From positions 62,001 to 126,000 of the forward strand of contig VCJN01000565.1 of assembly GCA_006384855.1 (NCBI GenBank): a stretch of 64,000 nt of DNA, in the 5' to 3' direction. Both the position numbers and the translations under genes were made by a program. The notes below the pieces were generated by a model. That model saw nothing but the letters and a program-made list of their open reading frames with translations. It did no database searches and was not told where the DNA came from. The DNA is from Tetraselmis striata. Lineage: Eukaryota > Chlorophyta > Chlorodendrophyceae > Chlorodendrales > Chlorodendraceae. Below, piece by piece: positions 32,687 through 62,830 of this stretch. The first letter of the stretch is position 1; every line of letters begins with the position of its first letter.

Positions 32687-33671
32687 CTATTTGCCCATCA
32701 ATCCATGCAGAATGGCCAAGTTGCGCTTGCACATCTGGGTGTGCGGGTGCGCCTCCCCCAGCGCCGCCCTGCGCCCCTCCAGCGCCTGCTTGTACAGGAG
32801 CGCCGCCGCCGCATAGTCGCCCTTGGACCAGTACAGGCCGGCCAGGTTGTTGATGGAGGTCAAGGTGTCGGGGTGCGCCTCCCCCAGCGCCGCCCTGCAC
32901 CCCTCCAGCGCCTGCTTGTACAGGGGCTCCGCCGCCGCATAGTCGCCCTTGGCCTTGTACAGGCCGGCCAGGTTGCTGATGGAGGCCAAGGTGGAGGGGT
33001 GCGCCTCCCCCAGCGCCGCCCTGCGCCCCTCCAGCGCCGCCTTGTACAGGGGCTCCGCCGCCGCATAGTCGCCCTTGGCTCGGTACAGGATGGCCAGGTT
33101 GTTGATGGAGGTCAAGGTGGAGGGGTGCGCCTCCCCCAGCGCCGCCCTGCGCCCCTCCAGCGCCTGCTTGAACACGGGCTCCGCCGCGGCATAGTCGCCC
33201 TTGGTATGGTACAGGGCGCCCGGGTCGTAGATGGAGGCCAAGGTGTCGGGGTGCGCCTCCCCCAGCGCCGCCCTGCACCCCTCCATCGCATGCTTGTACA
33301 GGGGCTCCGCCGCGGCATAGTCGCCCTTGGCTTGGTACAGGGCGCCCAGGTTGTAGATGGAGGCCAAGGTGGAGGGGTGCGCCTCCCGCAGCGCCGCCCT
33401 ATGCCCCTCCAGCGCCTGCTTGTACACGGACTCCGCCGCGGCATAGTCGACCTTGGCATGGTACACGATGGCCAAGCAGGTGATGGAGTCCAAGGTGTCG
33501 GGGTGCGCCTCCCCCAGCGCCGCCATGCGCCCCTTCAGCGCCTGCTTGTACAGGGGCTCCGCCGCGGCATAGTCGCCCTTGGCCTGGTACACGGCTCCCA
33601 GGTTGCCGATGGAGGTCAAGGTGGAGGGGTGCGCTTCCAACAGCACCGCCTTGCGCCCCTCCAGCGCCTGC
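32687..33671 (-). CDS. Kinesin light chain-type TPR protein, 3' part
   Basis: About 328 codons of tandem 42-residue TPRs ending in a TAG at 32687. The consensus is GEAHPDTLASIxNLAxLYxxKG, then DYAAAEPLYKQALEGRRAAL; seven full repeats and a partial one are visible. At the DNA level the 126-base units are very similar to each other, as if homogenised by recombination. The 5' side stops sharply at 33671/33672 inside a repeat, at CCTCGCAG, which could be a splice acceptor, or the breakpoint where other sequence has joined. The N-terminal effector module seen in the related gene at 1-966 is missing here. TPRs of this kind bind protein partners; nothing specific can be said. Confidence 0.8.
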
Positions 33672-33689
33672 GAGGACTACATGGTAACC

Positions 33690-35728
33690 GCAAACGTGGG
33701 GAAACAACTTGCTGAGGAAGCAGAGGTGGAGTACTCGCGCCTCGTGAACAGAGGGGCTCGGCTGATGCAGGTTACCACCCATGTCTTGCCCACCTATGTT
33801 CCCAACGTGATGGTCTCCAATATGACCCTCGTAGGTAAGACTTGCATGGACTGCTGCGTACTAAAGACCCCTTCTCCGGTTTACCAGAAACGATTACACC
33901 CTTCGTGGGCAGTCGAGGACAGCGCGGAGCCCTTTGTACAACAACCGGCTGAGGGCGTAGCCGGACCTGGGCATGAGGAAAAATTGCCTGAGCCGCGTGC
34001 CTCGCAATCGACTGTGACCAACTCTTCCGCACGCGGTGCGTCTGTTTCTCAAGACTCGGTGTACGACGCTACCCAACCCGAATTTCACCTCAGTTCGGAC
34101 GGGGGGGTTTCGGAAGAGGACGAGCCGGCTCCGCCAACGGCACCTGCGTCCCCGGCTATCGAGCTTCTCGAGTCACCCACGCCTGAGGTACTGCCTTGCT
34201 TTGGCCCTCCTGCAAGCGTGCGCCTTAATCTTCTTGAATTTCTTGTTTGCAAGTACTTAGTCGGTGCCCCGTGTTGCCCAGCCTGGCGGACCACCTCAGC
34301 AAGTTGATCCTCGTCTACGCCGCGGATGGGACCCCAATTACGAGAACTTCGACGACTGGTTCTCGGTATGGCCCGAGCCTGAGTCGTTGTACGGCGAGGA
34401 TTACGGCAACTTGCACTATGCGATGTGCAAGTGGCTCCGAGATTGGGAGTTCGATAAATTTGACATCGAGTATCAGTACGCCTTCCTGGAGGGTTTCCTG
34501 CGCTTATGCCCGCCGCCGCCTGGCGTGGAATTTCGTTTCTGTCGTGCGAGCATGGACTACTCAAGGCGAGGCTTTCCGAATTTTGTGTCTAGGCATGAGT
34601 CGTCATGTGGCCGCCGAGACCCGGCCCCCGAAGGCGTACTTGTTTTTTGGTTCCACATAATGTATCCCTGGGGTTCGAGGGCCTGGGAGCGGCCAGAGTC
34701 GTTGCCGTTTCCCAAGTCCACTGAAGCGGGCGGGCACTTCGCCATCGCGGTATGGACAACTCGTGACGGGCGTGCAGTTGCGCCGGTTTTCCTATATGAC
34801 AGCTACTATCGTGTCCCATCGGGTGGTGTACATGCCGACCAGCGCCAATACGTTGGTTGCGAGAAGGCCTTGTGGGAGATTCTGCGCACCACAGACATGG
34901 CACGGATGCCCGCTGTCCTACGTGGTCGTGTCAGCCAACATGATGGTAAATATGCGAACTCGTGCTGCATGCGCGCTGGACTGGGAGGCCGCGCGTTCGT
35001 GTTCGTCGTGTGCCGAGAGTTCTGGCGCGCCCGCGTTGCCCGGACCTTCGATAGGCCGCCGCCGCTTCGTGTCGAGACCCCAGAGTTGCGGCGATTCGGT
35101 GTGGATGCCTTGGTTCATGGTGACTGGTCTGGGCCTGACCCCCTTCGAGGGGCCGGTGAGGAGGGGGAAGATGAGTTTTCTGCGTTGCCTCATCGACGGC
35201 GTTCCGTGGGACGTGTTCCCGCCGGGAGTGGGCATGTCGTGGTGGGGCGCTGAGCAGATCTCCCGGAGCCTGGACTTGGCGCGCACGAAGTTCACGGCTA
35301 GTCAGGGTCCTTGGCGGTGGCCATATGTGGTGCCGAAACGGGACAACCCTCATGCCAGGCAGATGCTTCAGAACGCCGCCCCAAACAACGTCACGTGGAA
35401 TAACATCACGTGGTCCCGAGCCGTGGACGCCGTTGTTATGGTCGAGTGTGGCGGCGTCGACGGAATCTCGCGCCACACAGGGCACAATATCCGCATGTTC
35501 CGGGACTTGCAGAGGGTGCCTCCGCGTGCTGGTCCTTGGACGCCCGCGCAGCTTATGCAAGCCCGCATACTCCGCTGCGCGACGTGCTTGGGCAACGCCG
35601 ACCCCAGACCCAACCACCCGGCAGGGCCTGTCCCTCATTTCGACGGGGCGGTGGTGGAGCACCACTGGCAGCCCGTCTTGCTTCCAGTGCAACCACCCCG
35701 ATCACCATCGCCTCCTCGACTTGAACAG
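33690..35728 (+). CDS. ULP1-like (C48) cysteine protease region of the plus-strand element gene
   Basis: The frame is open from 33672; ATG 33690 is the first start. Residues 1-166 contain a Cys pair (KTCMDCC) and a Ser/Pro/Glu-rich linker. An intron, 34188-34260 (GAG|GTACTG to ACTTAG), joins in phase 0 to SVPRVAQPGG. The protease-like part has AGGHFAIAVWTTRDG (His), APVFLYDSYYRV (Asp) and SQHDGKYANSCCMRAGL (Gln and Cys), the H-D-Q-C order of ULP1/SENP enzymes; the Gln-Cys spacing is a little long. Near 35,130-35,160 the frame changes, by indel or an unseen intron, and continues with DVFPPGVGMSWWGAEQ, RMFRDLQRVPPRAGP and ILRCATCLGNADP, ending at 35728 (LEQ|) before the first cassette intron. 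Protease identity is inference from motif order. Confidence 0.5.
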
Positions 35729-38188
35729 GTGTGTTTACTACTCGACACGCATCTATTCCACTACGCACCCGTGTCTTTTCCGGCATGCTAATTTAGTCGC
35801 CATCGCACCTTGCCCGCCGCAGGCCCCGAGCGCGGGAGCTGGTCCGAGCGACGCACCCCCTCGCGTGTTTGCTGCCGAGCCGCAGCCGGCATCGACAGGG
35901 GCGCCGGCTGTCGCCAAGGTGGGATGGCCGCGCTGCACCTTTGTTGCCGTTGCGCACCTGTTACTTTTACGGCATGCTAATTTAGTCGCCATCGCATGTT
36001 GCCCCCCGCAGACCCCGAGCGCAGGAGCTGGTCCGAGCGACGCACCCCTTCGAAGCGCTCCGCACGAGTTGCAGCCAACATCGACAGGGGCGCCGGCTGT
36101 CGCCAAGGTGGGATGGCCGCGCTGCACCGTGTTGCCGCTGCGCACCAGTTACTTTTACGGCAGGCTAATTGAGTCGCCATCGCACGTTGCCCCCCGCATA
36201 CCCCGAGCGCAGGAGCTGGTCCGAGCGACGCACCCCCTCGCGTGTTTGCTGCCGAGCCGCAGCCGGCATCGACAGGGGCGCCGGCTGTCGCCAAGGTGGG
36301 ATGGCCGCGCTGCACCGTGTTGCCGCTGCGCACCAGTTACTTTTACGGCATGCTAATTGAGTCGCCATCGCACGTTGCCCCCCGCAGACCCCGAGCGCAT
36401 GAGCTGGTCCGAGCGACGCACCCCCTGGAAGCGCTCCGCACGAGTTGCAGCCAGCATCGACAGGGGCGCCGGCTGTCGCCAAGGTGGGATGGCCGCGCTG
36501 CACCGTGTTGCCGCTGCGCACCTGTTACTTTTACGGCAGGCTAATTGAGTCGCCATCGCACGTTGCCCCCCCATAGACCCCGAGCGCAGGAGCTGGTCCG
36601 AGCGACGCACCCCCTCGAAGCGCTCCGCACGAGTTGCAGCCGGCATCGACAGGGGCGCCGGCTGTCGCCAAGGTGGGATGGCCGCGCTGCAACTTTGTTG
36701 CCACCGCGCACCAGTTACTTTTACGGCATGCTAATTGAGTCGCCATCGCACCTTGCCCGCCGCAGACCCCGAGCGCAGGAGCTGGTCCGAGCGACGCACC
36801 CCTTCGAAGCGCTCCGCACGAGTTGCAGCCGGCATCGACAAGGGCGCCGGCTGTCGCCAAGGTGGGATGGCCGCGCTGCACCGTGTTGCCGCTGCGCACC
36901 AGTTACCTTTATGGCAGGCTAATTGAGTCGCCATCGCACGTTGCCCCCCCACAGACCCCGAGCGCAGGAGCTGGTCCGAGCGACGCACCCCCTCGAAGCG
37001 CTCCGCACGATTTGCAGCCGGCATCGACAGGGGCGCCGGCTGTCGCCAAGGTGGGATGGCCGCGCTGCAACTTTGTTGCCACCGCGCACCAGTTACTTTT
37101 ACGGCATGCTAACTGAGTCGCCATCGCACGTTGCCCCGCCGCAGACCCCGAGCGCGGGAGCTGGTCCGAGCGACGCACCCCTTCGAAGCGCTCCGCACGA
37201 GTTGCAGCCGGCATCGACAGGGGCGCCGGCTGTCGCCAAGGTGGGATGGCCGCGCTGCAACTATGTTGCCACCGCGCCCCTTGATACTTTTACGGCAGGC
37301 TAACTGAGTCGCCATCGCACGTTGCCCCGCCGCAGACCCCGAGCGCAGGAGCTGGTCCGAGCGACGCACCCCCTTGCGTGTTTGCTGCCGAGCCGCAGCC
37401 GGCATCGACAGGGGCGCCGGCTGTCGCCAAGGTGGGATGGCCGCGCTGCACCGTGTTGCCACTGCGCCCCTTGATACTTTTACGGCAGGCTCACTTAATC
37501 GCCATCGCACGTTGCCCCCCGCAGACCCCGAGCGCAGGAGCTGGTCCGAGCGACGCACCCCCTCGCGTGTTTGCTGCCGAGCCGCAGCCGGCATCGACAG
37601 GGGCGCCGGCTGTCGCCAAGGTGGGATGGCCGCGCTGCACCGTGTTGCCGCTGCGCACCAGTTACTTTTACGGCATGCTAATTGAGTCGCCATCGCACGT
37701 TGCCCCCCGCAGACCCCGAGCGCAGGAGCTGGTCCGAGCGACGCACCCCCTTGCGTGTTTGCTGCCGAGCCGCAGCCGGCATCGACAGGGGCGCCGGCTG
37801 TCGCCAAGGTGGGATGGCCGCGCTGCACCGTGTTGCCACTGCGCCCCTTGATACTTTTACGGCAGGCTAATTGAGTCGCCATTGCACGTTGCCCCCCGCA
37901 GACCCCGAGCGCATGAGTTGGTCCGAGCGACGCACCCCCTCGCGTGCTTGCTGCCGAGCCGCAGCCGGCATCGACAGGGGCGCCGGCTGTCGCCAAGGTG
38001 GGATGGCCGCGCTGCACCTTTGTTGCCACTGCGCACCATGATACTTTTACGGAAGGCTAATTGAGTCGCCATCGCTCGTTGGCCCCCGCACACCCCGAGC
38101 GCAGAGGCTGCCCCGAGCGACGCACCCCGTCGCCCGAAACAGAGCAAGACTGCAGAGATGCTCGCCAAAGTTACAAAGCAAAAGGTGT
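35729..38188 (+). repeat. Array of exon-intron cassettes (12 units of about 188 bases)
   Basis: Twelve units repeat head to tail. Each has a 96-base segment starting (A/G)CCCCGAGCGC and ending GCTGTCGCCAAG, then a 92-95 base segment starting GTGGGATGGCC and ending at CGCAG. The second segment looks like an intron: GT donor, branch-like GCTAATTGAG about 35 bases before the end, AG acceptor. The first is an open 32-codon exon (TPSAGAGPSDAP, then VFAAEPQP or SAPHELQP, then ASTGAPAVAK), phase 0 at both ends. Exon starts: 35823, 36012, 36200, 36388, 36577, 36766, 36955, 37145, 37336, 37525, 37713, 37902. All twelve are exactly 96 bases. A divergent thirteenth exon starts at 38092. Acceptors of units 3 and 13 are mutated (CAT, CAC). 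Type A exons are 1, 3 and 9-12; type B are 2 and 4-8. Confidence 0.85.
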
Positions 38189-38235
38189 GTACGTGATTTG
38201 TGCCGTTGCCTGTCACTCATCATTTTAAGTTGTAG

Positions 38236-40318
38236 GTAAGACTTGCGCGCTTTGTCAGGGCATGAAGGGTGGGCAAAGGCAACCGTGCAAGCATAACCCG
38301 GCATTTGTGAGCGCTCGGACTACATCCCGTCGTCTCGCTACTGCAGCCAACGAGGACGCTGAGGACGACTTTCAGCCTCGGCCGAAGCGTAAGGCGTCTC
38401 AACCTAGCCGGCGCGGAGCCTTCGAGCCCGTGGGACCCGCATGGCGGGTGACACGCCGTCGGTGCGCACTTCTGCGCATGTCCCTCGGCCCGCCGGGGGT
38501 TCTTCCGGTCTTCATACAAGCTTACCGGCTCCTCCGCGTTGGGGCCAAAAAGGAGCACGCAGCCGTCCCCAGGGTGAGCGTCTCCTGCCTAAGGCACAGG
38601 CGACGGCGGGTAAGCCCAGGACCGCGGCAAAGCCGGGTACAGCCGAAGCGGCTGAGACACACACAATGGGCCTTGCGAGTGCGTCGACTGTGCGGGCGCC
38701 GACGCCAACAGGAGCCGAGGACTCGCGGTTTCCATTCAGGGCAGCCAACCTCGTCGCGCGACACAATACTACTCCTCGGTTGTCTGTTACAACTGCTAAC
38801 CGTCGAGACCTCGTCGACCCCAGGTATCGTGTCAGATCGGCTACTCAGGGTGCCAAGACTGCGCCGCCAAGGCAAGAACCTTTCCTGCAGCGCGCTGTGG
38901 GGAACGCCGATTTTTTAGCTAGGAAGCAACTCAGCTTCGTAGTCGAGGAAGAACTCGGCACGAAGATGGCGACGTTGCAGACTCACTTGCTGCTCACTTG
39001 CCCCGACTTCTTCCTCGCCGGCGAGAGGAATCCTCTCATTCGCATTGGAGACCGGAGCCAGATGGTCATGCACCTTTCAGGCGAGCGTCCCGCCCCCACC
39101 CCCTCCCCCCCAACGCGGTCCCACTCCAATAATACATGCAGGCAAATTTCTAAGTCGATTGATGACCGTCCTTGTTTTCAGGCCCTGAAGACCCCCGCTG
39201 CCTAGTGCCGAATTCTCTAGAGGAGTCGCTGTGCATTGTTCTGCTAGATACGGAAGATGGCCTACATCTCTACGGGGAGCTCCAACACGTCTTCAACGGG
39301 ATCATACAGAAGGCTCATTCTTTCCTCCGACTCGGTGAGTCGATGATGCCCGCCACGCAGTCGTTGGTTTTCGTGCCCTCCGGCGCGGACATCGGCCTGC
39401 CCGCTGTCAGCGCCCACCGAGGCACAATCGTGTTGCTCTTCTACTGGGGATGTTGTAGCCCTCTTCATCTCGTGCGTCACGGAGCGGACATTAGTCTCGA
39501 GGACGCGATGGCGTGGGTGTCTCCGACGTTGGTGAGACCCCCCCCCCCCCCCCCCCCCCCGCCCATTCAGCTCGGAATGATTGTAATCCAACCTGCGGTA
39601 GGTTGCTTAGAAGGATGTACACGGCGCAGGTTGCGCAAGCCGCGGCATCGTGCCTGGGCCTGGAAGAGTTTCTGCGGAGGTATTGGCCTCGCGTGCTCGG
39701 AAACGTGAGGGTAGGTGGAAATCTCTGCGAGGACCGCCCGGCTGCTGCGAGGGCCATGGCGCCGTGGGGGGCGGTAGACGCGGACTACGTTCATGTGTGC
39801 GGTGGCAGCCGCTTGCGAGCCTCGCATTCGATGCCCGGCCTGGTTGTCGCGCTTGCGGGAGAACGCGTGGTTCGGGAGCCAGCCTTCAAGTCGGTGCCAA
39901 TTACTGGTTGCGAGTCGTGCCGAGGAAACAAAGCCGCGGGGTACCTTTACGGCTACGTTTGTCTCACCCCTCAGACCGGAGTGCCTGCACCGCCTCCGGA
40001 TTGGCAGCTAACCCCGCCGACGATGGTTTTCAATCCTGACCTCTTCCCGGACACTTACATCAACAGCACATACAAGAGGCACCAGTTGCAGATTCCTCGT
40101 CTGATCGAAGTCTGCCGTCAGTACGGGCGCCTTGACCCTGCCGCGCTGTTCGTTGACAACCCGTTAATCGCTGCGGATATCAGGCAATACCTTGACGACG
40201 AGTGCGGCTCACCGCCGCCAGAGGAGAAGTTCCCAACATCCGAAGAAGATTTCGCCCACCTGTCCCCTCTCGCCCCCCCCCCCCCCCCCCATCCACCACC
40301 ACCATGTGTCCATACCGT
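38236..40318 (+). CDS. Downstream part of the plus-strand element gene, unknown domain
   Basis: If the last cassette exon is spliced at 38188 (GTACGT donor) to 38236, the frame reads KVCKTCALCQG followed by CKHNPAF, a possible zinc-binding cluster; that intron would be only 47 bases. The frame shifts once between 38,440 and 38,560. It goes on through ADFLARKQLSFVVEEELG, then a GC-AG intron (39081-39181), LCIVLLDTEDGLHLYGELQH, then an intron with a C22 run (39532-39629) that joins in phase to VAQAAASCLGLEEFLRRYW. The rest (ITGCESCRGNKAAGYLYGYV, PDLFPDTYINSTYKRHQLQI) ends in Pro-rich sequence at a C run and TAA 40318. No family recognised. In-phase introns support a real, once expressed gene. 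Confidence 0.5.
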
Positions 40319-40371
40319 GTAAACACAACTCTTCTGGTATGTAGCCAACCACCACCTCGCCAATTGTGCAG

Positions 40372-40989
40372 GTCTCAGTGTGTCGCGGCACCTAGCCTTG
40401 GCAGCACTCGGCAACAATTCTACGCGCGACTGGCGTGCCTGGGGAATGCCAGGGGAGTGGACCCAAGGCCACATTACTCGAGCTTTCTCCGTATTCACGT
40501 CGCTACGTCCGCAAGAAATACCACCCATTATACCGACTGCATGGGAGTATGACGTGATCAAGACGAGCGTTGCGAGTTTTCAGGGCTCGGTGATTTGGGA
40601 CCCCTGCGCCGGGACAGGAGGTACAAAAGTTGCGTTTCGAAGCATTGCCAAACGAATTTGGATGAGTGATGTGATCGACTATGGCTGCGCATACTTTGTC
40701 GCCGACGCGCTTTTACCTGAAACACATGACAGCGTAAGGTTGCGATAATACCCCTCGCCGTATATAATTTTCACGTCGCCGTGGTTCAGCATGTTGGACA
40801 TGTTTGTACCGGTGGCACTGGCGTCGAGCGCCACGTTGCTTTGCGTGCAAGTCCCGCACACGTATCTGTCACAGGGCCCAAAGCCCAGGTTGGAGTTCTT
40901 CGCGTCACTGGCAGGGCAGAAACGCCTATGCATTCTATACTCATCACGAACAGAAACCCGTCGACAAACATGCGCGCTATGTGGCTTGT
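40372..40989 (+). pseudogene. Methyltransferase-like protein with one in-frame stop
   Basis: A likely acceptor (CAATTGTGCAG) precedes the frame. It contains SVIWDPCAGTGGTKVAFRS, a glycine-rich AdoMet-binding motif I, followed by RIWMSDVIDYGCAYFVADAL (acidic motif II region). After a TAA at 40746 the same frame continues with YIIFTSPWFSMLDMFVPVAL, where SPWF sits at the place of the (D/N/S)PP(Y/F/W) catalytic motif of amino-methyltransferases, then VQVPHTYLSQGPKPRLEFFA, ending at 40989. The uninterrupted frame on both sides of one stop shows a single disabling change. I recall similar short proteins in algal transposons. It may be the last domain of the upstream gene or a separate ORF. Substrate unknown; adenine or another amino group in nucleic acid is likely. 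Confidence 0.6.
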
Positions 40990-41120
40990 GATATGTAAGG
41001 GAGGCGTTGTAATCGACAATTACATAACGGAGGTCGCGTTATCGCAAAGGATCCCCTTGCTGATAGAGCCATTGCGCGCATAGAATGGACACTGAGGCCA
41101 GATGTAACTCTACTTTGTCG

Positions 41121-44100
41121 CTAGCGATGCCTGCCTCGAAGAGTCTCCGCCAAGGACATGTCGAGTTCAGCCGCGCCGTCATTTCCACTGTCTGCCTCTA
41201 AATGGGGGGAAGTTCTGGGGGTTGCGACTTGGTCGAAAGCGGGATCGTAGCTCGGCAGCTTTAGCAACCTCTTCGGCGGTCGTTCTCTGCGGCGTGGCTT
41301 CCTAGACCATAAGATATCAGGGCTGGAAGTAGGTTGGACACCGAATTCGGCATCCAGCTCGGCCATGAGTCGACGACGCTCGTCATCCGGAGAGACGGCG
41401 GCAACTACCTTACTGACGGGGACTTGAAGCCTCCGTTTATTGACGGAGTTGTCGCGGTCACGTGGCGCGGCCTTCGATACGCAAGGGTTGGGCCGCGCGC
41501 GCTTGCGGGACTGCAGGCCCCTTGCGTGTCCTGCGGGCGTACTCTGCTCAAGCTGCCGTGGCGCATCGTCGTGCGCCGCGACTGGTTTAGCGCCGGCTTT
41601 TCGAGGTCGGCCGCGCTTGCGGGGTTGCAGCCCGCTACTCTTCTCCGGTGGGGGTCCCTGAAGTCCGTCGATGGGCCCGGCAACGCCCTTGGCCGTTGTA
41701 GCTGCCGAAGGCACATGCATGGGGGCGGTCGCGCCCGAGTGCCATTTGGCCCCTACCAAGCCCCGCCGGCGATACGCTAAGGTCCAGGCATGCCAGGACT
41801 CCCATGGGGACCGAAGGTGAAACAGGCTTGCGGGGACGCCCGCGCTTGCGGGGCTCCAGCCCGTCGCAAGCGCATGTGTCCTCCGCGGGGACAGGTGAAT
41901 CTTGTATTTGCTGAAGATCGGCCACACGTTCTGTGACAAGCGTTGTAACTGACGGTGTCGCCGGGAGAATGGGCGCCGGGGGCTGACGCGGTTGACGCGC
42001 AGTCGCGACAATGCCCGAACGACCTGCGCCTCGTCCTCGCCCTGGAGCCCTGCCTCGTCCACGCCTCCCAACACCCCCTCGTCCCGGTCACGCATGCGCC
42101 CTGCGCCGTCTGGTGGTTGGACCTGCAAAGCTGGAACGCCGTGCGCAGCTCGGTGCGGCGGGTTCTTGCCCGCCATGCCTACGACGCCCTGCTCGAAACG
42201 CATGCGAACATCCGTATCGTGAAGTGCACGCCAGAGATAAAGGTGGCTGCACTGCCGGTACCTTCTGAACTCGTCGCAGTCGCAGGAAACCCCGTTGTCG
42301 CCCGCAGAAACGCACTTCAGTCGACAACAAACTCTGCGGACGGCTTGCAAGGAGCGACAAGGTTGGGGCAGCATTCCTCGCCTACTGTTGGTATACGCGA
42401 CAATGCGCGCCAGGGTGACTTGGTCCTCGGAGTGGTAGTCGGCGTTAACGGACAACTCGCCGTCATGCCACATGTAGAGCTTTAGCCCACGCCTGTCCGG
42501 ATTTAAGAAGTCATTAGCGCCATGAATGTAGTGCGAGAATTCCTGTTGCAAACCGGAGTTGAAGTCCTCGTACAACTCAGTGTGTTGCGCGCCTTGATGC
42601 TTGCATAGGTCGGGGAAGCCCTCCTCGAGCAAAGTGTCAGTCGGCCGGCGACGTTTGCCAAACTGTTCGTCGCATTTGCTTGCGCGGTGCCAGCTCTCCT
42701 GCGAGTTTGTAGACGCAGGAACACCTGCTACACCTGGGGCGCAGTTGATCCAGGTTAGGTTGTTGCCTAAGTACTCGTTCTCGAGCCAGCGCGCCGCCCG
42801 TCTCTCACCAACTCGACGCCACTCCGCCATCAAAACCTCGGCGACGGCTTCAGCTTGCTCGCGTGTACTGCTTTCGTAGATCGTGGTGATAGTCTCCAGA
42901 CACAACGATTTGTTGCGTTCGTGAGTGAGGACACAGTAGCTGCGGCCATCCTCCTTCAACCTAGTGCCCCTGGTTTTAATCTTCCGAAAGAGGTGGTGGT
43001 AGCAGGTAACAGCCTGCGGCGTCGGTTATAACACACGTTCAAGCAAGTTATGTGGTCCGACCCGATTCCAACTTAAAGACAAAGAGATAGACGGGCGTCA
43101 CCTTGGCCGCGGGGAACATCGTCCTAATTGCCAAAACCACTCCAGAGCCCTTGTCGGAGACAACTGCACTAGGGTCGAGGGCGACGCCAAAAAGCTCGCG
43201 ACAGGTTGACGAGAGACCCCGAAAGAGTGTCAGAAAGGCAGGCGCAGTCTCAGAGCGAGCGAAGCAAAACGCAATTGGCAAGAACGTGTTGACGAGTTTC
43301 CGTTTGAAGCTGGATTTTCTGATCGTAGTCGTGCCGACTGTCACAAGGACCCACTTGTTGAACGACACCTTGTGCGTGCCGTCAGTCATAAGGTGCAAGT
43401 GCAGTCCAGAAAGCAAAGCCATCCGAAGCGTGCTCAAGAGCTCGAGTGAAGAAAACGCCACAGCACTCGACTCCTCATCTACTCCGTCTCGGAGCACAAC
43501 CAAGTCAGTTTCTGACACTCTATCCAACGCAGTCCTTGATGGCAATGCCTTTGACTCGGCCCACTCGCGCAGATCGTGAAAAGATGTGAGCTGAAACGCT
43601 CCTTTGCCGAGCTTGATCAAATACTTTTTCCACCGCCGTAGCTGAGTCAAGAGCTGGGGCCGCATGCCATCCAGGACTCCGGCAGCGCGTATGGTCGAGC
43701 GTGGTACATGATCCAACGCATTCTTTGGCGACATTCCCCGAAGCAGGAGCGGCTGCGGTATGCCCCGACGAAGCGACTGAGGTACACCCTCCCCACCACG
43801 GATCTCGACAAGTGTAGTCGTGTGAACATCGTTGCTGAACTGCAACTCCCACTTGCCGGTTTGCTTGTTGACAACCGCGCGCATCCGGGCCAGGCAGGCT
43901 ACATGCTGCCGGCACAAGTACACCTGTAAACATAGTTCCGTTGGTTCAACCGCAGGTGACTGCTACCTGCACGCGGAAATTATTTGACGAGGGGCAGCAT
44001 ACCTTTGTAGACGCCGAGGCATACAAGAACCGCCATTTAGTAGGGAGGCCTGAGATCACCGACTTGACCGCTTTGTAGTCGGCATATTCAGTGTGGCCGT

Positions 44101-44490
44101 CTTCGGCAGGAAGCCAATGACCGATACGGTGTGGTTGTACCTCAGCCCCATCCAGGTTGGGCCGTGGGGCCCCTGCAACTGCCGTGTCGGAACGCTTGGC
44201 GCTGCCTTGCATACCGGGGCTGCCTGCGGCACCCTCTTGAGACGCTACTACTTCAGCCAAAGACGAAGTGAGGCGCTGTTCACCCCCCTTAACGACTCTT
44301 CGAAGGTCGCAACATCACGCAATGCTGCCCCACGCGAGGAGACGGGCCGGCCGACGGCAGACCCGATACAACTTGTTGCCATCTCGAGAAGAACTTCCCT
44401 ACTCAACATTCCCTCATGATCTTGAAGGAGTTCCCGCACCTCCCCAAGTGCGGCGCGAAGTTCGTGTATAGCCCGCAAGGGGGAACCCAT
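41121..44490 (-). CDS. Mutator-like (MULE) transposase
   Basis: Exons on the minus strand: 44490-44004, 43923-43102, 43013-41121; introns 44003-43924 (80 bases) and 43101-43014 (88 bases) are GT-AG and in phase. A six-G run at 44282-44287 seems to have shifted the frame in exon 1. Domains in order: a zinc finger across the first intron (KWRFLYASASTK|VYLCRQHVACLARM, later His in NDVHTT); DDE core with LHLMTDGTHKVSFNKW (first Asp), AVVSDKGSGVVLAIRTMFP (second Asp), AK|AVTCYHHLFRKIKTRG (C-x-x-H), and STNSQESWHRASK (Glu); a SWIM finger VSCDCDEFRRYRQCSHLYL near 42,250. The C-terminal tail has AT-hook cores KRGRPRK at about 41,615 and, in another frame, 41,840, so an intron or frameshift lies between. 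It cuts and pastes its element. Possibly defective through the two shifts. Confidence 0.85.
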
Positions 44491-44770
44491 ACTGACCCCG
44501 CAGCCCTACTTCCTACTTGTTTCAGCGAGAACTGTTAGGCAGGTGTGGGAGGCGGAGAACTGCCCCGACTTCGCGGCAACCTACCTACCTACCTACCTTC
44601 GGAGAACCTGCCTCGACCCGCCGCCTTTGCCTCGTTCCGCCGCCACCAAGTGATTATGTACTTTGCGCCAGTACACGCGAGCCCTAAAAACCTGCACAGG
44701 GTTTAAAGCTAGTAAATTGTCCCATTTTCAGTGAGTCATAAGTGAAGTATAGTGGCCTGTACCGTTTACG
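44491..44770. other. Spacer upstream of the transposase gene
   Basis: Contains (CCTA)n near 44582 and nothing coding. The right end of the MULE should lie here, but I see no inverted match to the left side. Confidence 0.4.
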
Positions 44771-45110
44771 CTATAATCTTGTCCCGTTATTCCACCGCGC
44801 TATTCCACCGATGAAACTGAATTTCTGGGAGTAGTAATTGCTCTCCAGCATTGACGACATTATTTGGAAGGGTGTAAACATTTCACTGTAGTCACCGATC
44901 ATACCACTCTGCGTCACCTGCCAGCCCAAGGAAAAGCTCAGCAGAAAACATGCTGGCTGGTCCCAAATAATTTCACCATACATGGACAATATGGATATTG
45001 TATACAAGAAGGGATCTCAAAATATGGCAGATGCATTGAGTAGACGATCAGATCTGAAAGATCTGAAGGCATCATTGGATGCACAGAAAAGGCCAAAACG
45101 CGAGCAAAAA
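44771..45110 (+). pseudogene. Ty3/gypsy RNase H fragment
   Basis: In two frames: LEGCKHFTVVTDHTTLRHL near 44,860, then DIVYKKGSQNMADALSRRSD near 44,992-45,050. These are the end of the gypsy RNase H domain (TDHxxLxxL and ADALSRR). The rest of the element is absent. A stop at the start of HYLEGCKH and a frame change show decay. Confidence 0.75.
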
Positions 45111-45600
45111 TGTACTGTAGGTCCTAGTTTTGCTGTTGTTTTTCGAACCAAATCACGTTGCCCGATTAGGGTTTCCTATTCTGCCTCTATGTACTATTTT
45201 CACCGCCTATTGTGCGGAAATATGGGGCACGAAGATGTGCACGACGGCTGCCGTAACGAACTACAACCACCTCTCCCTCGGCACCCACCCACACTCCTCG
45301 GCACGCCACTCAGTCAGTGGTCACCCATGCTAGCCGTGCTAGCCGTCGGAGTGAAGCGCGGGCCACCAGACACCCTTATGACCGAGCCGTACCTACGACG
45401 GTCCTTGCGAAATGTCGCTTGGGGGGGTTAAGTCACCGGATTTCAGGGCCGATGAAGGACCCCCCAGACGCTCGGCGGCGGCGGAGGCCTACGCAGGCCG
45501 AAGGCACGGCTCCTACCCCAGTACCATAGTCATAGCCAGCCGAACCGACGTGGCGATCCTTGCGGCGGGGGCGGCGGCAGCCGCCCGCTTCGTACCGTCC
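45111..45600. other. Spacer, no gene recognised
   Basis: Short ORFs only. The end leads into the left arm of the foldback element. Confidence 0.4.
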
Positions 45601-45689: not shown

Positions 45690-47215
45690 ACGGGTAGGCT
45701 ACGTTCTGACTGCAACCTCACTACAATCTCGGGGCGCATTACCGGCAGATTGCTATTTGCGTTGTTGCTGCTAGTAGGTTTACGCTACGGTTGACGGCGC
45801 CGAGGCTAGTGCGTGAACGGCGGCGGGCAATCCCGCGCGCGTTCAGCCGTGGCGCCGTCGCCGGCGGTTATCTAGCAGTGGCTAGGACCGGGATATACGC
45901 GGGTACCCGTATCTGCCAGGGACGGCAAGCCGAAGGGAAAATAGTGTGCATTGACCAGGGCAGATTTAATTCTTTCAGCCGCCTAGATCGTGCGCGAGCC
46001 CTGTCGCTACTCGTCGATTGTTGGCGGGTGTAGCGCGCAAACCTAGTTGGCCCAGTACCGGTAGTGGTACCGACTGCTCTACAATCTCCCCGGTACTGGT
46101 CACTACAATCTTGCGGCGCGGCACCGGCAGACTTGCGAGATTGCTAGTATTCCAAGTAATACTACGCCACGACTGCTGGCGCCACGAGGTGAGCGGGTGT
46201 AGGGTGCATAATTGAGATGAGATATGCAGGTAGGCTACGATCTGACTACAATAGCCAGTAAGGATCTCGAACGATCGAGTAATACAATCTGACTACGGTA
46301 GCGACTACTGGTAGCGAGTAAGGAATGTTGCGTTAGGCATGCGGTAACTGCCCACCTGGCTGAAACACTTTCCTTGTCTGGGGTATTTGTTGCATACTTG
46401 TATGACAACAGCGCATAGGGTTGACGGGAAAGTACGACTGCTAGCGAGGTGCTCTCCCGAGAACTTCACTATGGCTTACTGAAAGCCCTAGATTGTTGCG
46501 CGCCACGCCGCAGATTGTTGTCTCAGGCATGTTTTAAATCCGCGCACGGCTGCGAAACCTTACAGTACCCGGAGAATGCGACATATAGAAGTATTATGCA
46601 TGCGCATGGGCTCAGCGACACGACATAGGTAGAGAGTTACACCCCGAGGAACATCATATTCGCGACGGCGAGCCCTAGAATGCCGCAGATTGTTGCCTTC
46701 GGCAGGCAGGAACGGCCTACCTGGCCGAGACACTTTCCTTGTCCGGGGTATTTGTTGCATACCTGCACGACAAAAACGCAGACGCTTGACGAGAATGTAC
46801 GATTGCCAGCGAGGTGCTCGCCTGAGAACTTCACTTAGGCTTACGTAAAGCCCCGGAATGTTGCGCCCGCCGCAGATTGTTGCCTTAGGCATGTTTTAAA
46901 TCCATGCACGAATGCTTACATTACCCGGATAATGCGGCATATAGAAGTATTATGCATGCGCATGGGCTCGGCGACAAGACGCAGATGCATAGTTACATCC
47001 CCAGGTACATCAGATTCGCGACGGCGAGCCCTAGATTGCTGCGCTGCGCCGCAGATTGTTGCCTTCGGCACGGCATGCCGGAACGGCCTAATTTTGGGGT
47101 GCGGTACCGACAGTTTGCTATTTGCGTTGTTTAGTATAATGCTAAGATTGACGGCACCACGGCTGTGTGAGTAGCAGCGGGTGGCACTCCCACTGTGAGA
47201 TTCAGATGTGACGTA
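45690..47215. repeat. Left inverted arm, internally repeated
   Basis: Two units spaced 362 bases apart (46,461 and 46,823) share TAGCGAGGTGCTC, CATACTTGTATGAC, TTTCCTTGTC.GGGGTATTTG and GCCGCAGATTGTTG. The outer part (45,690-46,330) has repeated ACTACAATCT and GTACCGG motifs. Confidence 0.75.
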
Positions 47216-48199: not shown

Positions 48200-49730
48200 G
48201 AGGGCGTGATATGGAAAGGCGATCCCGGCGACTTCTACATGAAGGTCATCGCCAAGAAGTTCCGGGGAGTATGGCACTACGGCGTGATAACCGGCGTCGT
48301 TACCGAGTGGGTGTTGGAGAACTACGGCGGGGCGACCCAGTGGCGCGCTGTTTTCGAGGACGGTGACATTGTGGACCTTCTGCGTTCAGAGGTGAGTGGG
48401 CCCGGCCTGCGTGCTGGTGGCACCACTCAACTGCGGTTGTATGGAATCACACGCACCCGCCCGGTCGGCGTGGCAGGTTGTGGAGGCTATGGCGGCTGCC
48501 CAGGAGCACCCCCCTGTGGATGCGGACGGGGAGGCTCGCTTGGTAACCGTCCATCAAGGCGATGACTTGTCCAGTGAATCACGCACCTTGCCCGGCGTGC
48601 GTTCAACACAATCCGGCTGGCGGAGGCCAAGCACAACACTGGCTGCCATGGCGTGTGCCATGTGCATGTGGTCCTGGGCTATGTCAGCATGATCAACCTC
48701 TTCCCCCTCGCGCCGTTCCACCTGTTTTTTTTTGGCTTGGGAAGGGACTTCTGGAGGAAATTTGTCACCGTGCAGGGCCACATTGGATTCCGAGCTATGA
48801 AGCAGGAAGACCGGCGCCAGGCTTTAGTCCCGATACCCATCAACTTTGAACGCGGGTTGCGCCCTTCGTTTGCAGTGTCCAAGAATCGAAAGGTAACCCC
48901 CCCCCCCCCCTGGGCGTGGGCGTGGGCGTGGGCGTGGGCGTGGGCGTGACGGCATTCCCCTCCATGACTGCAGGGTCAGGCAAGGTGACGGTGCAGTCCG
49001 GCTGGGTCATGGAGGACTGCTTGCACCACATGGAAACGTTTTCCATTCTTAACGCCGGTCCGCTGCTCGAGGAGGCCCGGGTGAAGGCGATCATGACCGA
49101 GAAGGAGCTTCGCGTCCCCAGGCGGTGCTTGGGCACATGTACAAGCGCATGCAAGGAGCTGCGTGGTTCGTCACGCGGTGGGGGTTGCAGAATGTGGTGA
49201 CGGAGGAGGACGGCCCCGAGCGCAAGGCGCAGGTGGACGCGCTCACTAGGGAGGGGAGGACTCGATACCCAGCGCGGCGCCAAGGCGCGGTGGCCGGGGC
49301 AGCGCGGCGCCAAGGCGCGGCGGCCGGGGCAGCGCGGCGCCAAGGCGCGGCGGCCGGGGCAGCGCGGCGCCAAGGCGCGGCGGCCGGGGCAGCGCGGCGC
49401 CAAGGCGCGGCGGCCGGGGCAGCGCGGCGCCAAGGCGCGGCGGCCGGGGCAGCGCGGCGCCAAGGCGCGGCGGCCGGGGCAGCGCGGCGCCAAGACAGCG
49501 CATACAGCGGAATCGGCGGAAAGGGATGCATTACAAGCTGTGGACGGCAGCCGCTGAAAACTATGCGGTCATGCCGCAACAACCCCAGCACTGGCTTCTG
49601 GATACCTCTGATCTGGCTGACGGCGGCGGGCTGCGGGATGCAGGGCCGCATGACTGAGGTGGCGGTGCTGGTGAGCCCGCAGAGTCTGCATGCGGCGGAG
49701 GCGGCGCAGCCGCATAGGCACTAGACAATG
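48200..49730 (+). pseudogene. Tudor-like domain and unknown transposase-like region
   Basis: GVIWKGDPGDFYMKVIAKKF, then GVWHYGVITGVV and WRAVFEDGDIVDLL, form a Tudor/PWWP-like barrel pattern (YxGxV ... YEDGDxxDL type). A GT-AG intron, 48392-48476, joins in phase to VVEAMAAAQEHPPVDADGEA. A one-base shift near 48,575 leads to LARRAFNTIRLAEAKHNTG and INLFPLAPFHLFFFGLGRD. A second intron starts at 48893 (GTAACC plus C14 and GTGGGC repeats) and ends near 48,975-48,985. The last exon reads SGWVMEDCLHHMETFSIL and AVLGHMYKRMQGAAWF (shifted frame), then the 30-base minisatellite. The 'P.H....GLGRDFW' part recalls the H/D region of BED-finger transposases, but I cannot name a family. Confidence 0.45.
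49271..49496 (+). repeat. 30-base minisatellite inside a reading frame
   Basis: About 7.5 near-perfect copies of GGGGCAGCGCGGCGCCAAGG plus CGCGGCGGCC. In the plus frame each unit encodes ten residues (ARRQGAAAGA). Because 30 is a multiple of three, copy number changes keep the frame. Confidence 0.9.
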
Positions 49731-54509: not shown

Positions 54510-57500
54510 ACCCGTATGTCACATCTGAATCTCACAGTGTCCCGCGCGCGTGCGTACAGCCATGGCGCCTTCAATCGTAGCGTTATACCACTGGCAGCAT
54601 CGCAAATAGCAATCATCTCCCGGTACCGCGCCCCGAGATTGGAGTCTGATTGTAGCCATCCCGTATATCGCAGACCGTGTATTTGCACGCTACACCCACT
54701 CCCCTCGTGGCGCCATCAATCGTAGCGTAGTAGTAAATGTTGATTTGCACGCTACACCCACTCCCCTCGTGGCGCCATCAATCGTAGCGTAGTAGTAATT
54801 GTTAAGATAATTAGCAATCTCGCATTAGTCTACCAGTACCGGGCCCCCAAGATTGTAGTGAACAAGAGGGCGGGGAGTTTGTAGATGCAAAAACCCCGCG
54901 CATGCAACGGTGGCGCAGTCGCGAGCGGCCATCAAGCAGTTGCTACGGCCAGAGTAATACGCAGGTACCCGTATCGACCGGGGACGGCAAGCAAACTGTG
55001 AGCCTATGCGCATTCATATTCTTTCTATGCCATATATATGCGCATGCGCAAAGATTGCCAGTCATCTAGGCAGTTACAGGATGCCTAAAGGCAGCAATCT
55101 GAGGCGTGCCGTAAGCAAATATCAGGTATTAGCGGTACTGCCTAGCAATCTGTATAGTATCGTCAAGCATTTGCTCATTCAGAATCCTTCTATGTCATAT
55201 ACATCCGCATTTAAACGATTGGCAGCCATATAGGCGGGTAGTACAGCGCGCCTAAAGTCAGCAATCTGCCTAGCAATCTATATACTATTGCCAAGCCTAC
55301 ATCAAAAACGCGTGATGCCCTTGGTGGTGCCATGTATAATACTTCTGTATGCCGCATTATCCGGGTACTGCAAGGCGTGCAGCCGTTTATGGATTTAAAA
55401 TATGCCTAAGGCAGCAATCTGCGGCGGGGCGCAACAATCCATGGCGTTCAATCCTAAGCCAAAGTGAAGTTCTCGGGCGAGCACCTCGCTAGCAGTCGTA
55501 CTTTCTCGTCAAGCCTTTGCACTTTTGTCATACAAGTATGCAACAAATACCCGGACATGGAAGGTGTTTCAGCCGTGTAGGCAGCTTCCGCCTGCCTAAG
55601 GCAACAATCTGCGGCGCAGCGCAACAATCTAAGGCTCGCCGTCGCCAATATGATGTACCTGTAGGGGTGTACCTGTCCACGAGTTTCTCGTCGTGGAGCC
55701 CATGCGCATGCATAATACTTCTGTATGTCGCATTATCCGGGTACTGTAAGGCGTGCAGCCGTGTATGGATTTAGAACATGCGGAAGGCAACAATCTGCGG
55801 CGCAGCGCAAAAATCTAGGGCTCGCTGTCGCGAATATGATGTACCTAGATAGGGGGTGTGGCTATCCACAAGTTTCTTGTCGCCGGGCCCCTGCGCATGC
55901 ATAATACTTCTGTACGCCGCATTATCCGGGTACTGCAAGGCGCGCAGCCGTGTATGGATTTAGAACATGCCTAAGGCAACGATCTGCGGCGGGGCGCAAC
56001 AGTCTAGGGCGTTCAATCCTAAGCCAAACTGAACTTCTTGGGCGAGCGCCTCGCTAGCAGTCGTACTTTCTCGTCAAGCCTATGCGCTTTTGTCATACAA
56101 GTATGCAACAAATACCCGGACATGGAAGGTGTTTCAGCCGTGTAGGCAGTTACCGCCTGCCGAAGGCAACAATCTGCGGCGCAGCGCAACAATCTAAGGC
56201 TCGCCATCGCAAATACGATGTACGCAGGGGTGTAACTATCCACGAGTTTCTTGTCGTGGAGCCCATATGCATGCATAATACTTCTATGCCGCATTATTCG
56301 GGTACTGCAAGGCGTGCAGCCGTGTATGGATTTAAAACATATGCCGAAGGCAACAATCTGCGGCGCAGCGCAACAATCTAGGGCTCGCTGTCGCGAATAT
56401 GATGTACCTACGGGTGTAACTATCCACGAGTTTCTTGTCGTCGAGCCCATGCGCATGCATAATATTTCTATATGCCGCATAATCCGGGTACTGTACGGCT
56501 TGCAGCCGTGTATGGATTTAACATATGCCTAAGGCAACAATCTGCGGCGGGGCGCAACAATCTAGGGCGTTTATATAGTACTAAGCCAAAGTGAAGTTCT
56601 TGGGCGAGCACCTCGCTAGCAGTCGTACTTTCTCGTCAAGCCTATGCGCTTTTGTCATACAAGTATGCAACAAATACCCGGACAAGGAAAGTGTTTCAAC
56701 CATGTAGGCATTTACCGCCTGCCGAAGGCAACAATATGCGGCGCAGCGCAACAGTCTAGCGCTCGCCGTCGCCAATATGATGTACCTGTAGGGGTGTACC
56801 TGTCCACGAGTTTCTTGTCGTGGAGCCCATGCGCATGCATAATACTTCTGTATGTCGCATTATCCGGGTACTGTAAGGCGTGCCGCCGTGTATGGATATA
56901 TTAAAACATGCCTACGGCAACAACATGCGCGCGGCAGGGTGCAACAATCTAGGGTTTTTCGCAAGCCAACGTGAAGTTCTCGGGCGAGCACCTCGCTAGA
57001 AGTCGTACTCTCGTCAACCCTATGCGCTTTTGTCATACAAGTATGCAGGAAATACCCTGATGACAAGGAAAGTGTTTCAGCCAGGTAGGCAGTTACCGTG
57101 CATGCCTAACGCAACAATCCTTACTCGCTACCAGTAGTCTCTATACCGGTACTGGTACCCTACGATACATATGCACGCTACACGCCTACACCCGCCGACA
57201 TACGACTAGTCGTCGCGACAGGGATCGCGCATAATCTCGGCGGCTGAAGAAGAATAATAAAACGGCCCCACTGACTGCACTTGATTTTGCTTCGCCTTGC
57301 CGTCTCCGGTACTACATACGGGGATACTGGTACCCGCCGCATGTTATCTCGGCCGGAGCCACTGCTAGACAACCGCGCCACGGCTGGACGCGCGCAGGGT
57401 TGCCTGCCGCCGCTCACGCAGCCGTGGCGCCGTCAATTGTAGCGTAATACTAGTGATAGCAGCATGCAAAAAACAATCTGCCGGTGCTGCACCGCGCCCT
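54510..57500. repeat. Right inverted arm with 562-base period
   Basis: Anchor GAAGTTCT.GGGCGAGC occurs at 55,466, 56,030, 56,592 and 56,972 (spacings 564, 562 and 380). Between anchors are two alternating blocks with GCATGCATAATACTTCT, GGCGTGCAGCCGTGTATGGA and CAACAATCTGCGGCGCAGCG. Near 54,690 and 54,745 a CGCTACACCCACTCCCCTCG unit is duplicated. Open frames here differ between copies and are not genes. Confidence 0.85.
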
Positions 57501-61230: not shown

Positions 61231-62830
61231 TTGACCTTGAATACCCATTTGCTGGGAATGGCTGTTCGCTCCTCTGGTAACTCGCACACCACCCACGTGC
61301 CCTGCTTCTCCAACGAGTTGAATTCTGACTCTACGGCTTGCGCCCATTGCTCCTTGAACGGTCCGGACAGGGCCTGCTTGAGCGTGATGGGCTCATCGAC
61401 ACCCTGTGTCACTGCCGCGAATGCGGCGGCCATCATAGCTGCAGCGTCGTCGTTGGGGTTTTCCGGATGCACGACCCACCATTGCCCAGGAGCTCGGCGA
61501 GAACGAGCAGGGTAGGGGTCCCTCTCAGCACGCTGGACTAAAGGTTCCTCTTGCCCGCCATCGTCGGTTCCCTCGTTCGTCTCCAACTGGGTCAGCTCCA
61601 GCGTGGGTTGCTGCGGTCCAAGTTCCAGTTCCTCCGCAGTCAGTGGCTCCTCCTCAATCTCAAGCTCCTCCTCAACGTCGTCCGTTTCATCCACGACACG
61701 CTGGTGAGCCTCGGTTATCTCTTGCAGCCGTGATGCGTCGGACGTGCTGCCAACCCCGCTGTTATCGAGAAGTGCCTGGTATTGGGGGAACATCTCAAGG
61801 CTTGCAGCAGCATCGCCCCCACTGCCCCCCTTGCTGCTGGAAGCCGCATCACGCCAACCCTCATCGAAAATCACATTCCGACTTGCAACCACCCGGCGAG
61901 TAGCTGGGTTCCACACTAAGTAGGTGTGAGATTCCTGCCCATAACCAACGAAGACCCCGCGAAAGGCCTTGGCGTCAAGCTTCCGCTTATTCCCGGCATC
62001 CACGTGCACATACGCTGGACAGCCGAACACCCGCAACCCAGGCCACATCTGGGGTCTTGCCAGTGTGACGCCGGTAGGGAACAGAACCGACACCCCGACT
62101 GTAGACATTGTTGCGGATGTGCATCGCGGCACAGAAGGCCAGCGCCCAGAACTCACGACCCAGGCCAGCATGTAGCAGCATAGCCCACCGTCATTTCGGA
62201 CAGAGTAAGCCACATACGCTCCTGCAGACCATTCTGCCATTGGCAGTATGGCGCAGAAAACTCAGGAACGAAGTGCAGGCCATCGCATGCAGATCGAAAA
62301 TCCGCACTCTGGAAGACTGAGTCGTTGTCCAATCTCAGGCGAGCTGTACTCTTGTCGTATCCGAATCGGGGATGCACGCGCCTGATAGCTCGCACCACCA
62401 ACAGCAGAGCCCTCGGAGCCTCATCCTTGGACTTCATGAAACACCACCCAGCCGTATGCCGAGTAGTAGTCAGTCATCCCAAACACGTAACGGAACCCGC
62501 CAATGGACGTCACACCACTGGCCCCCAGATGTCAGCTCCAAACTTCTGCAGTGGCCCAGTAGGACGCTTTGACGCAATGCGCGACCGCGGCTGTTCGTGA
62601 GACTTCGCCAACGCGCAACAGTCACAAAACGGCAAGATCTCATCCTTCGCGAACGTGATCCCCGAGACGCTCTCCGCAAGCAAACGATCCATGCCTGCAG
62701 CATGCAGATGGCCAAGACGTCTGTGCCACAGCAACTTTGACAACTTCCCACAAGCTTGCAGCGCAACAACATCCGCAGGGCTGGGCGCACGCCCGCTCCG
62801 TAGTATTCTGCTGCGGAAAGCGTACAAGTT
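61231..62830 (-). pseudogene. Copia integrase
   Basis: The pre-integrase zinc region shows LLWHRRLGHLHAAGMDRLLA and FCDCCALAKSHEQPRSR (HHCC finger, 62,600-62,730). The core has FGADIWGPVV (first Asp), RLDNDSVFQSADFRSAC (second Asp) and PYCQWQNGLQERMWLTLSE (Glu). The C-terminal part has LRVFGCPAYVHVDAGNKRKL, FRGVFVGYGQESHTYLVW and NVIFDEGW, then an acidic linker to RT. Four or more frame changes break it up. Confidence 0.9.

Follow-up and report, generated by a model that had tools for sequence, protein, structure and literature searches.

A tandemly repeated, probable exon-intron unit in a putative Mutator-like transposon of the green alga Tetraselmis striata

The question raised by this locus is whether a tandem repeat that has the anatomy of a row of small exons and introns encodes part of a protein, serves its element as DNA, or is a satellite with inherited splice-like signals. 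The locus lies in a stretch of 64,000 nucleotides of Tetraselmis striata (assembly GCA_006384855.1, contig VCJN01000565.1, forward-strand positions 62,001 to 126,000), the whole of which we call the window. The original prediction had seen here twelve exon-intron cassettes under selection at the protein level. Comparison with the other copies in the genome establishes a real and specific structure. Duplication of exons in tandem, as which it is best read, is in itself familiar; the carrier is unusual. We consider it likely that the array is a tandemly repeated phase-0 exon with its intron in an accessory gene of a Mutator-like transposon (MULE), spliced into an Ala/Pro-rich protein tail of variable length.

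The array in the window and the element that carries it

The array occupies positions 35729-38184 (Table 1). As predicted, its twelve exon parts are all exactly 96 nt long (12/12), its introns measure 92-95 nt, and a GT donor follows every exon, GCCAAG standing directly before GTGGGATG in 12/12 units; the 96-nt parts follow an acceptor-like site, are in phase 0 and read TPSAGAGPSDAPPRVFAAEPQPASTGAPAVAK or a near variant. The two exon types proposed are also present, in the order A B A B B B B B A A A A, the blocks being partial. The 15-mer spanning the donor has 142 exact copies genome-wide against none for its reversed control, which places the array far beyond chance. Only the first ~42 nt of the terminal exon are homologous to an array exon, and as an alternative to its donor-like GTGTGT site it could end at a TGA a few codons further on.

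Table 1. Features of the array and of the element around it (window coordinates)
Feature	Position	Strand	Remarks
MULE copy with array (assigned by sequence)	33671..44788	+	delimited by blastn of window against other copies
Open stretch with peptidase-like part	34261..35253	+	HFAIAVW at 34735, CMRAGLGG at 34966; frame broken before array
Intron before array	35729..35822	+	94 nt; 3' half like array introns
Intronic motif TCGCCATCGCAC	35797..38077	+	13 copies (10 exact, 3 with one mismatch), one per intron
Array exon 1	35823..35918	+	96 nt
Array exon 2	36012..36107	+	96 nt
Array exon 3	36200..36295	+	96 nt; acceptor CAT instead of CAG
Array exon 4	36388..36483	+	96 nt; TGA in frame, codon 5
Array exon 5	36577..36672	+	96 nt
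Array exon 6	36766..36861	+	96 nt
Array exon 7	36955..37050	+	96 nt
Array exon 8	37145..37240	+	96 nt
Array exon 9	37336..37431	+	96 nt
Array exon 10	37525..37620	+	96 nt
Array exon 11	37713..37808	+	96 nt
Array exon 12	37902..37997	+	96 nt; TGA in frame, codon 5
Terminal exon	38092..38184	+	93 nt up to GTGTGT donor-like site; acceptor CAC
Transposase-side open frame	41121..43025	-	zinc-finger-like Cys/His stretch; no Pfam match
Putative MULE transposase domain	43048..43962	-	PF10551, E 0.00033, under curated cut-off

Several other expectations fail for this copy. An AG acceptor had been claimed for every unit, and it is lost before exon 3 (CAT) and before the terminal exon (CAC); the branch-like motif, also said to be present throughout, has a deviating form in the intron that starts at 37432 (GCTCACTTAAT). 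The envisaged 384-residue domain is ruled out as a product of this copy by the in-frame TGA codons of exons 4 and 12 together with the lost acceptors. Retention of a unit was expected to break the frame, which does not hold for introns of 93 nt, where the frame is kept; yet 63 of 90 such introns (those of 93 nt that adjoin a 96-nt exon) gain a stop. Further, the frame of the peptidase-like part differs from that of the exon preceding the array, and the element is truncated on the left at 33671, a point past which other copies remain highly similar. With its lost acceptors, TGA codons, broken upstream frame and truncation, the window copy is thus a dead relic in decay.

The carrier itself is, by its sequence, a MULE: two of its copies match the transposase profile PF10551, with E-values of 0.00033 (21.5 bits) and 0.00041 (21.2 bits) that lie under the curated Pfam cut-off of 27.6 bits. 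The Cys/His stretch in the neighbouring open frame is one that we take to be SWIM-like. Comparison of the right ends of the copies places that of the window copy at ~44785-44788, and the 24-mer at this end (44762-44785) occurs 261 times genome-wide at ≤2 mismatches. The 1.5-kb stretch before the array has at least 43 matches, genome counts from DNA queries being lower bounds (the best 40 of 61 and 40 of 706 candidates were scored). Several copies are internal-deletion derivatives (e.g. L012, L024, L030, L033 and L037). MULEs duplicate 8-11 bp of their target site and, except for the non-TIR types, have terminal inverted repeats. No inverted repeat joins the two sides of the window copy, whose left side is truncated and hence uninformative for terminal inverted repeats.

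At the cut the element abuts a minus-strand gene with TPR-type repeats (32745-33671; 126-bp period, ~7 repeats). The right flank (44790-45430) is unlike the left one and resembles the RNase H part of a Gypsy-type retrotransposon. Plus-strand open frames 3' of the array (window 39495-41083; locus L070, 1589-2554) contain DPCAGTGG and TSPWF stretches, which we think reminiscent of a DNA methyltransferase; they have no Pfam match, and a search for PDB relatives of the downstream frame gave one match only, to a potassium channel (E 0.04), which we set aside.

The gene into which the array would be spliced can be read in better-preserved copies. Of the 29 upstream loci besides that of the window (L010-L038), 13 have a single frame open from the peptidase-like part through to the pre-array donor, which it reaches in phase 0. 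Ten related predicted proteins were found, among them P0007, a Tetraselmis relative that is 35-36% identical and has no array; it keeps His172, Asp193, Gln240 and Cys248, the four residues invariant in a three-sequence alignment with identities down to 35%. This His-Asp-Gln-Cys order is that of the C48/Ulp1 peptidases, and the set resembles theirs, which makes the domain a candidate member of that group. No Pfam profile matched the array gene (including the open copy L021, P0003, P0004, P0006 and P0007), and no PDB sequence matched the open copy. A search of PDB with the alignment of the peptidase-like domain returned a single meaningless match (E 0.82), and the AlphaFold2 model from the three sequences was unusable (pLDDT 32).

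Splice sites and reading frame across the copies

We assembled 267 complete units from 30 fetched stretches, dropping 34 of 301 unit matches that have no unit following. A GT donor is present in 265/267 and an AG acceptor in 253/267 of these units; the exon measures exactly 96 nt in 215/267, its length is divisible by 3 in 235/267, and the introns range from 89 to 130 nt. The branch-like GCTA/CAY motif is recognizable in 211/267 introns, mostly 31-33 nt before the intron end. The units were cut by alignment, as a consequence of which one of the five units of the copy on contig C1619, where exon 1 is fused to the upstream exon, has no true acceptor. At the end of contig C1585, runs of single-base insertions within the units look like assembly errors.

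The most telling comparison is between elements whose upstream gene is open and the rest. Thirteen elements, chosen solely because their open upstream frame reaches the donor in phase 0 (open-frame elements lie on contigs C273, C218, C1476 and C1913, among others), have GT in 85/85 units, AG in 85/85, an exon length that is a multiple of 3 in 83/85, and one in-frame stop in all their array exons. Their introns are 92-115 nt long and off a multiple of 3 in 46/85; they vary by single bases between GT and the branch-like motif (37 introns have 57 nt here and 29 have 58 nt), and their most variable part is the C tract before the acceptor. In the remaining 17 elements, whose frame is broken or not visible, the counts are 180/182 for GT, 168/182 for AG and 152/182 for exons in multiples of 3. 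The open-frame elements differ from the others with Fisher probabilities of 0.0005 over all units and 0.0018 without the two noisiest stretches, the units being non-independent; counted by element, 1/13 open-frame elements and 9/17 others contain any off-frame exon. By these counts the array has the marks of a tandemly duplicated exon array: a symmetric exon, GT-AG boundaries and a frame that is kept where the gene is open.

These counts bear on the simplest alternative, a plain satellite in a dead transposon region whose splice-like signals and 96-nt parts are inherited and homogenized, with no present splicing or coding. Such a satellite would readily accommodate the stops and lost acceptors of the window copy, the equal divergence of exons and introns, and the out-of-frame expansion of a relative on contig C30 (both described below). 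It would leave unexplained why features of the array track the state of the upstream frame, why 13 of the 29 other upstream loci are open through to the donor, and why the length variants shared among introns differ from those shared among exons. We regard it as unlikely. The proposal of a phase-0 exon and a short GT-AG intron in a transposon gene is supported for the family and not for the window copy. An equal frequency of frame-breaking indels in exons and introns, named beforehand as an observation that would speak against it, does not hold in the 13 open-frame elements and is in part seen elsewhere.

Gene models are consistent with the tandem-exon reading. Predicted proteins designated jgi/Tetstr1 TSEL match loci of this genome, Tetstr1 standing for Tetraselmis striata, a chlorodendrophycean green alga. 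Five of the ten predicted proteins contain joined array exons (P0002, P0005, P0006, P0009 and P0010). P0006 corresponds to element C2232:709900 in 7/7 exons and 6/6 junctions, P0002 to the C1619 element in 4/4 junctions, and P0009 to the C598 element in 3/3; the repeat parts of these three match single loci letter for letter. In P0005 and P0010 some units are read in other frames. The models thus chose the same splice sites that we propose, and they may be purely ab initio. We found no spliced, intronless copy in the genome, as is expected for a DNA transposon, so that this result is uninformative on splicing; two one-mismatch matches to the exon-exon junction proved to be unrelated sequence.

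Taken with the frame evidence, we propose that intact copies are probably spliced, and that working copies would join GCCAAG or GGCAAG to ACCCCGAGC once per unit. The duplicated block would be one phase-0 exon of 32 codons, rich in Ala, Pro, Ser and Gly, with a GT-AG intron of ~93 nt; with exon and boundaries all in phase 0, the frame would survive whatever the number of units. The predicted product consists of the peptidase-like domain, then a tail of n x 32 residues that looks disordered, and finally a short basic end. The protein may terminate a few to ~10 codons into the terminal exon, either with KVCT and a stop, as in the terminal exon of the P0006 model, or with a short conserved end reached by splicing.

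Selection, array growth and the intronic motif

The original prediction had taken constant exon length as a sign of selection on the protein. Strong selection of this kind is unsupported by three measures. First, exons differ between elements by 10.4% and introns by 9.7%. Second, among distinct indel events in all fetched sequences, those in multiples of 3 account for the same 14% in exons (9/65) and introns (20/144). Third, pN/pS pooled over the arrays of 29 elements reaches 1.10 when the exons are read in the proposed frame, compared with 0.89 and 0.90 when they are read in the alternative ones. Among exon length variants, those that preserve the frame recur from element to element, a loss of 12 nt in 7 and a gain of 6 nt in 4, and frame-breaking exon events are mostly confined to single elements, with four recurring in two elements each. 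The lack of stops in array exons had to be dismissed as evidence of coding, since all six frames of the 96-nt exon are open, each in 117-128 of 130 distinct exons (62% open in a base-shuffled control).

The dN/dS values of 19 pairs add depth to the picture. In the deepest comparison, that of the C1619 element with six A- and P-type elements, the peptidase-like part has values of 0.36-0.42 and the array exon values of 0.56-0.76, and it is only here that the array values point to purifying selection on the encoded residues, the pooled data giving no such sign. Six recent pairs involving L013 give 0.71-0.98 for the peptidase-like part and 1.9-2.9 for the array; three pairs involving L035 give 0.44-0.57 for the peptidase-like part, with no array value. 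The four remaining pairs give 0.60, 0.70, 0.77 and 1.55 for the peptidase-like part, and 1.45, 1.94, 3.05 and an undefined value (zero synonymous changes) for the array. As the frame is kept in open elements, yet the pooled ratio exceeds one and six frames are open, it seems that the frame of the array is filtered and its residues hardly are. The individual residues of the tail may accordingly matter little, its frame and composition more.

Growth of the array appears to proceed at the DNA level. Where the terminal exon is seen (twelve stretches), copies have from 3 to 43 units. Units differ by a mean of 5.2% within an element and 9.2% between elements, and higher-order repeats on contigs C423, C705 and C407 support the predicted growth by exchange, whether of a single unit or of more, the most similar units lying four apart in C423 and three apart in C705 and C407. 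The edges of the duplicated block ignored splice sites, the left one falling midway through the first intron and the right one midway through the terminal exon. The likeness within elements, the multi-unit periods and these edges fit unequal exchange or slippage of whole units, by which blocks of one to several units would be gained and lost.

The same evidence bears on a third explanation, in which a mobile intron was inserted repeatedly into a repeat-coding exon. The array introns are indeed near-identical, as are those of introner families in the portion of PMC9860276 consulted. Repetition of exon and intron in one register, as whole-unit duplication would yield, the multi-unit periods, and a start in mid-intron with an end in mid-exon all speak against insertion, and we hold it to be very improbable.

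A related array has grown out of frame. On contig C30 (locus L076), ten complete homologous units form a 719-bp higher-order repeat with exon parts of 96, 77, 95, 94, 78, 77, 95, 94, 78 and 77 nt, of which 3/10 are multiples of 3; there are in-frame stops in the 96- and 78-nt parts, while AAG/GTGG donors and ACAG acceptors remain. To judge from its sequence, this array has little capacity to code and has nonetheless expanded. Contig C30 is absent among the matches listed for the 1.5-kb stretch before the array.

What C30 does retain is a motif in the intron, TCGCCATCGCA(C/T), 12 bases long and flanked by the branch-like motif and the C tract. This is the basis of the alternative that the unit acts primarily as DNA, its intronic motif being multiplied as a candidate landing array for a protein encoded by the element, with the exon a passenger that is spliced or even unused. 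Ranked among 12-base windows, TCGCCATCGCA comes first when A units are compared with C30 units (100%; the exon as a whole is conserved at 68% and the 5' half of the intron at 49%) and when C1619 units are (94%), and it leads the pooled ranking with 0.928, the next window, in the exon, scoring 0.925. It attains this rank in a branch-to-acceptor stretch on which splicing places no demand for a particular sequence. The 16-mer GTCGCCATCGCACGTT has 2,845 sites genome-wide at ≤1 mismatch against 7 for its reversed control; among the matches listed, 13 of 21 contigs with it also show the right end of the element. The C30 array keeps motif and splice-like sites, in a recurring 719-bp unit, despite broken exon frames. 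There is also a parallel in the VANC proteins, whose targets, according to the parts of PMC5735166 consulted, are motifs arrayed in tandem within introns and further non-coding stretches of VANDAL elements.

Other observations speak against this alternative. The motif was spotted by eye before the ranking, and between A and C1619 units it is only the fifth window (93%), behind windows in the exon. A high number of sites would by itself follow from the copy number of the transposon. Neither is it enriched elsewhere in the window element, where the one site outside the array (34739) has two mismatches; the window as a whole has 11 sites outside the array, ten with two mismatches (9.4 expected by chance) and one, at 56201, with one. 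Above all, a landing array does not explain why frame and both splice sites are kept in 83-85 of the 85 open-frame units. We give this explanation a low chance, and continue to favor the spliced tandem exon.

The two functions might also be combined in a dual-use unit, in which the exon adds 32 residues to a VANC-like protein tail and the intron adds a target site for such a protein. This is speculative, with a slim chance of being correct; were it true, tail length and target-site number would co-vary with each unequal exchange, and the element would tune ligand and landing array in one step.

Precedents among plant transposons and other genes

The nearest precedent is, by analogy, the VANDAL group of MULEs in Arabidopsis with their VANC genes. 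The parts of Hosaka et al. (2017; PMC5735166) consulted describe VANC proteins with tandem peptide motifs in their variable parts, VANC genes whose exon/intron organizations are frequently linked with tandem repeats, and VANDALs with fast-changing tandem arrays of the target motif in introns (see also PMC10398659, likewise in part). The algal gene shares this anatomy as an apparent accessory gene of a MULE; it differs in that one unit of ~189 bp combines exon, intron and motif and is repeated up to 43 times. The VANC domains DUF1985 and DUF287 gave no Pfam match at E-values up to 5 in L021, P0003, P0004, P0006 and P0007. We found no sequence kinship with the algal gene, and the likeness is one of anatomy; anti-silencing, with sequence-specific loss of DNA methylation, characterizes the VANDAL/VANC system.

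KIU/Kaonashi elements are plant MULEs that carry a gene for a C48/Ulp1-type peptidase, according to the consulted parts of PMC6117577 and PMC13317346, which make no mention of a tandem exon array. The algal element likewise has a peptidase-like gene, in which only the His-Asp-Gln-Cys order is seen, with no Pfam or PDB match. A role analogous to those of the VANC and KIU accessory proteins may be proposed for its product.

Beyond transposons, the spider Flag and MaSp2 silk genes (PMC3522626, in part) are animal structural genes and far larger; the algal unit measures ~189 bp and belongs to a transposon present in dozens of copies. In recently duplicated human genes, minisatellite growth alters the exons and introns of paralogues, the internal repeats having a mean unit of 30 bp and ~4 repeats (PMC2812944, in part), compared to a whole exon plus intron repeated 3-43 times in the alga. 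In a literature made up mostly of freely accessible papers, we found nothing on Tetraselmis MULEs or on exon-intron arrays in transposon genes except the VANC work; PMC6446971 has no mention of green algae, Ulp1 or tandem.

Tandem exon duplication is usually studied from one gene per genome. Here, dozens of recent transposon copies, open and dead, contain the same exon-intron unit, so that unit turnover, frame filtering and intron drift become measurable against each other. Although the window copy itself is broken, the copies with ~3 to 43 units constitute a natural series for the growth of a gene by exon repetition. They also provide an algal test case for the idea, drawn from the Arabidopsis VANC genes, that accessory genes and target arrays of MULEs evolve through tandem repeats.

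Other repeats occur in the same sequences. An unrelated second tandem repeat with periods of ~189 and ~380 lies at 55331-57119 of the window (also at 46323-47070) and recurs at the end of L038, and a near-perfect, G+C-rich 30-bp tandem repeat of 7.5 copies occupies 49270-49494. Finally, a related type of element, represented by L069 on contig C1363 and at least 20 equally scoring contigs, has several degenerate exon-intron units; its many near-identical copies look recently amplified.
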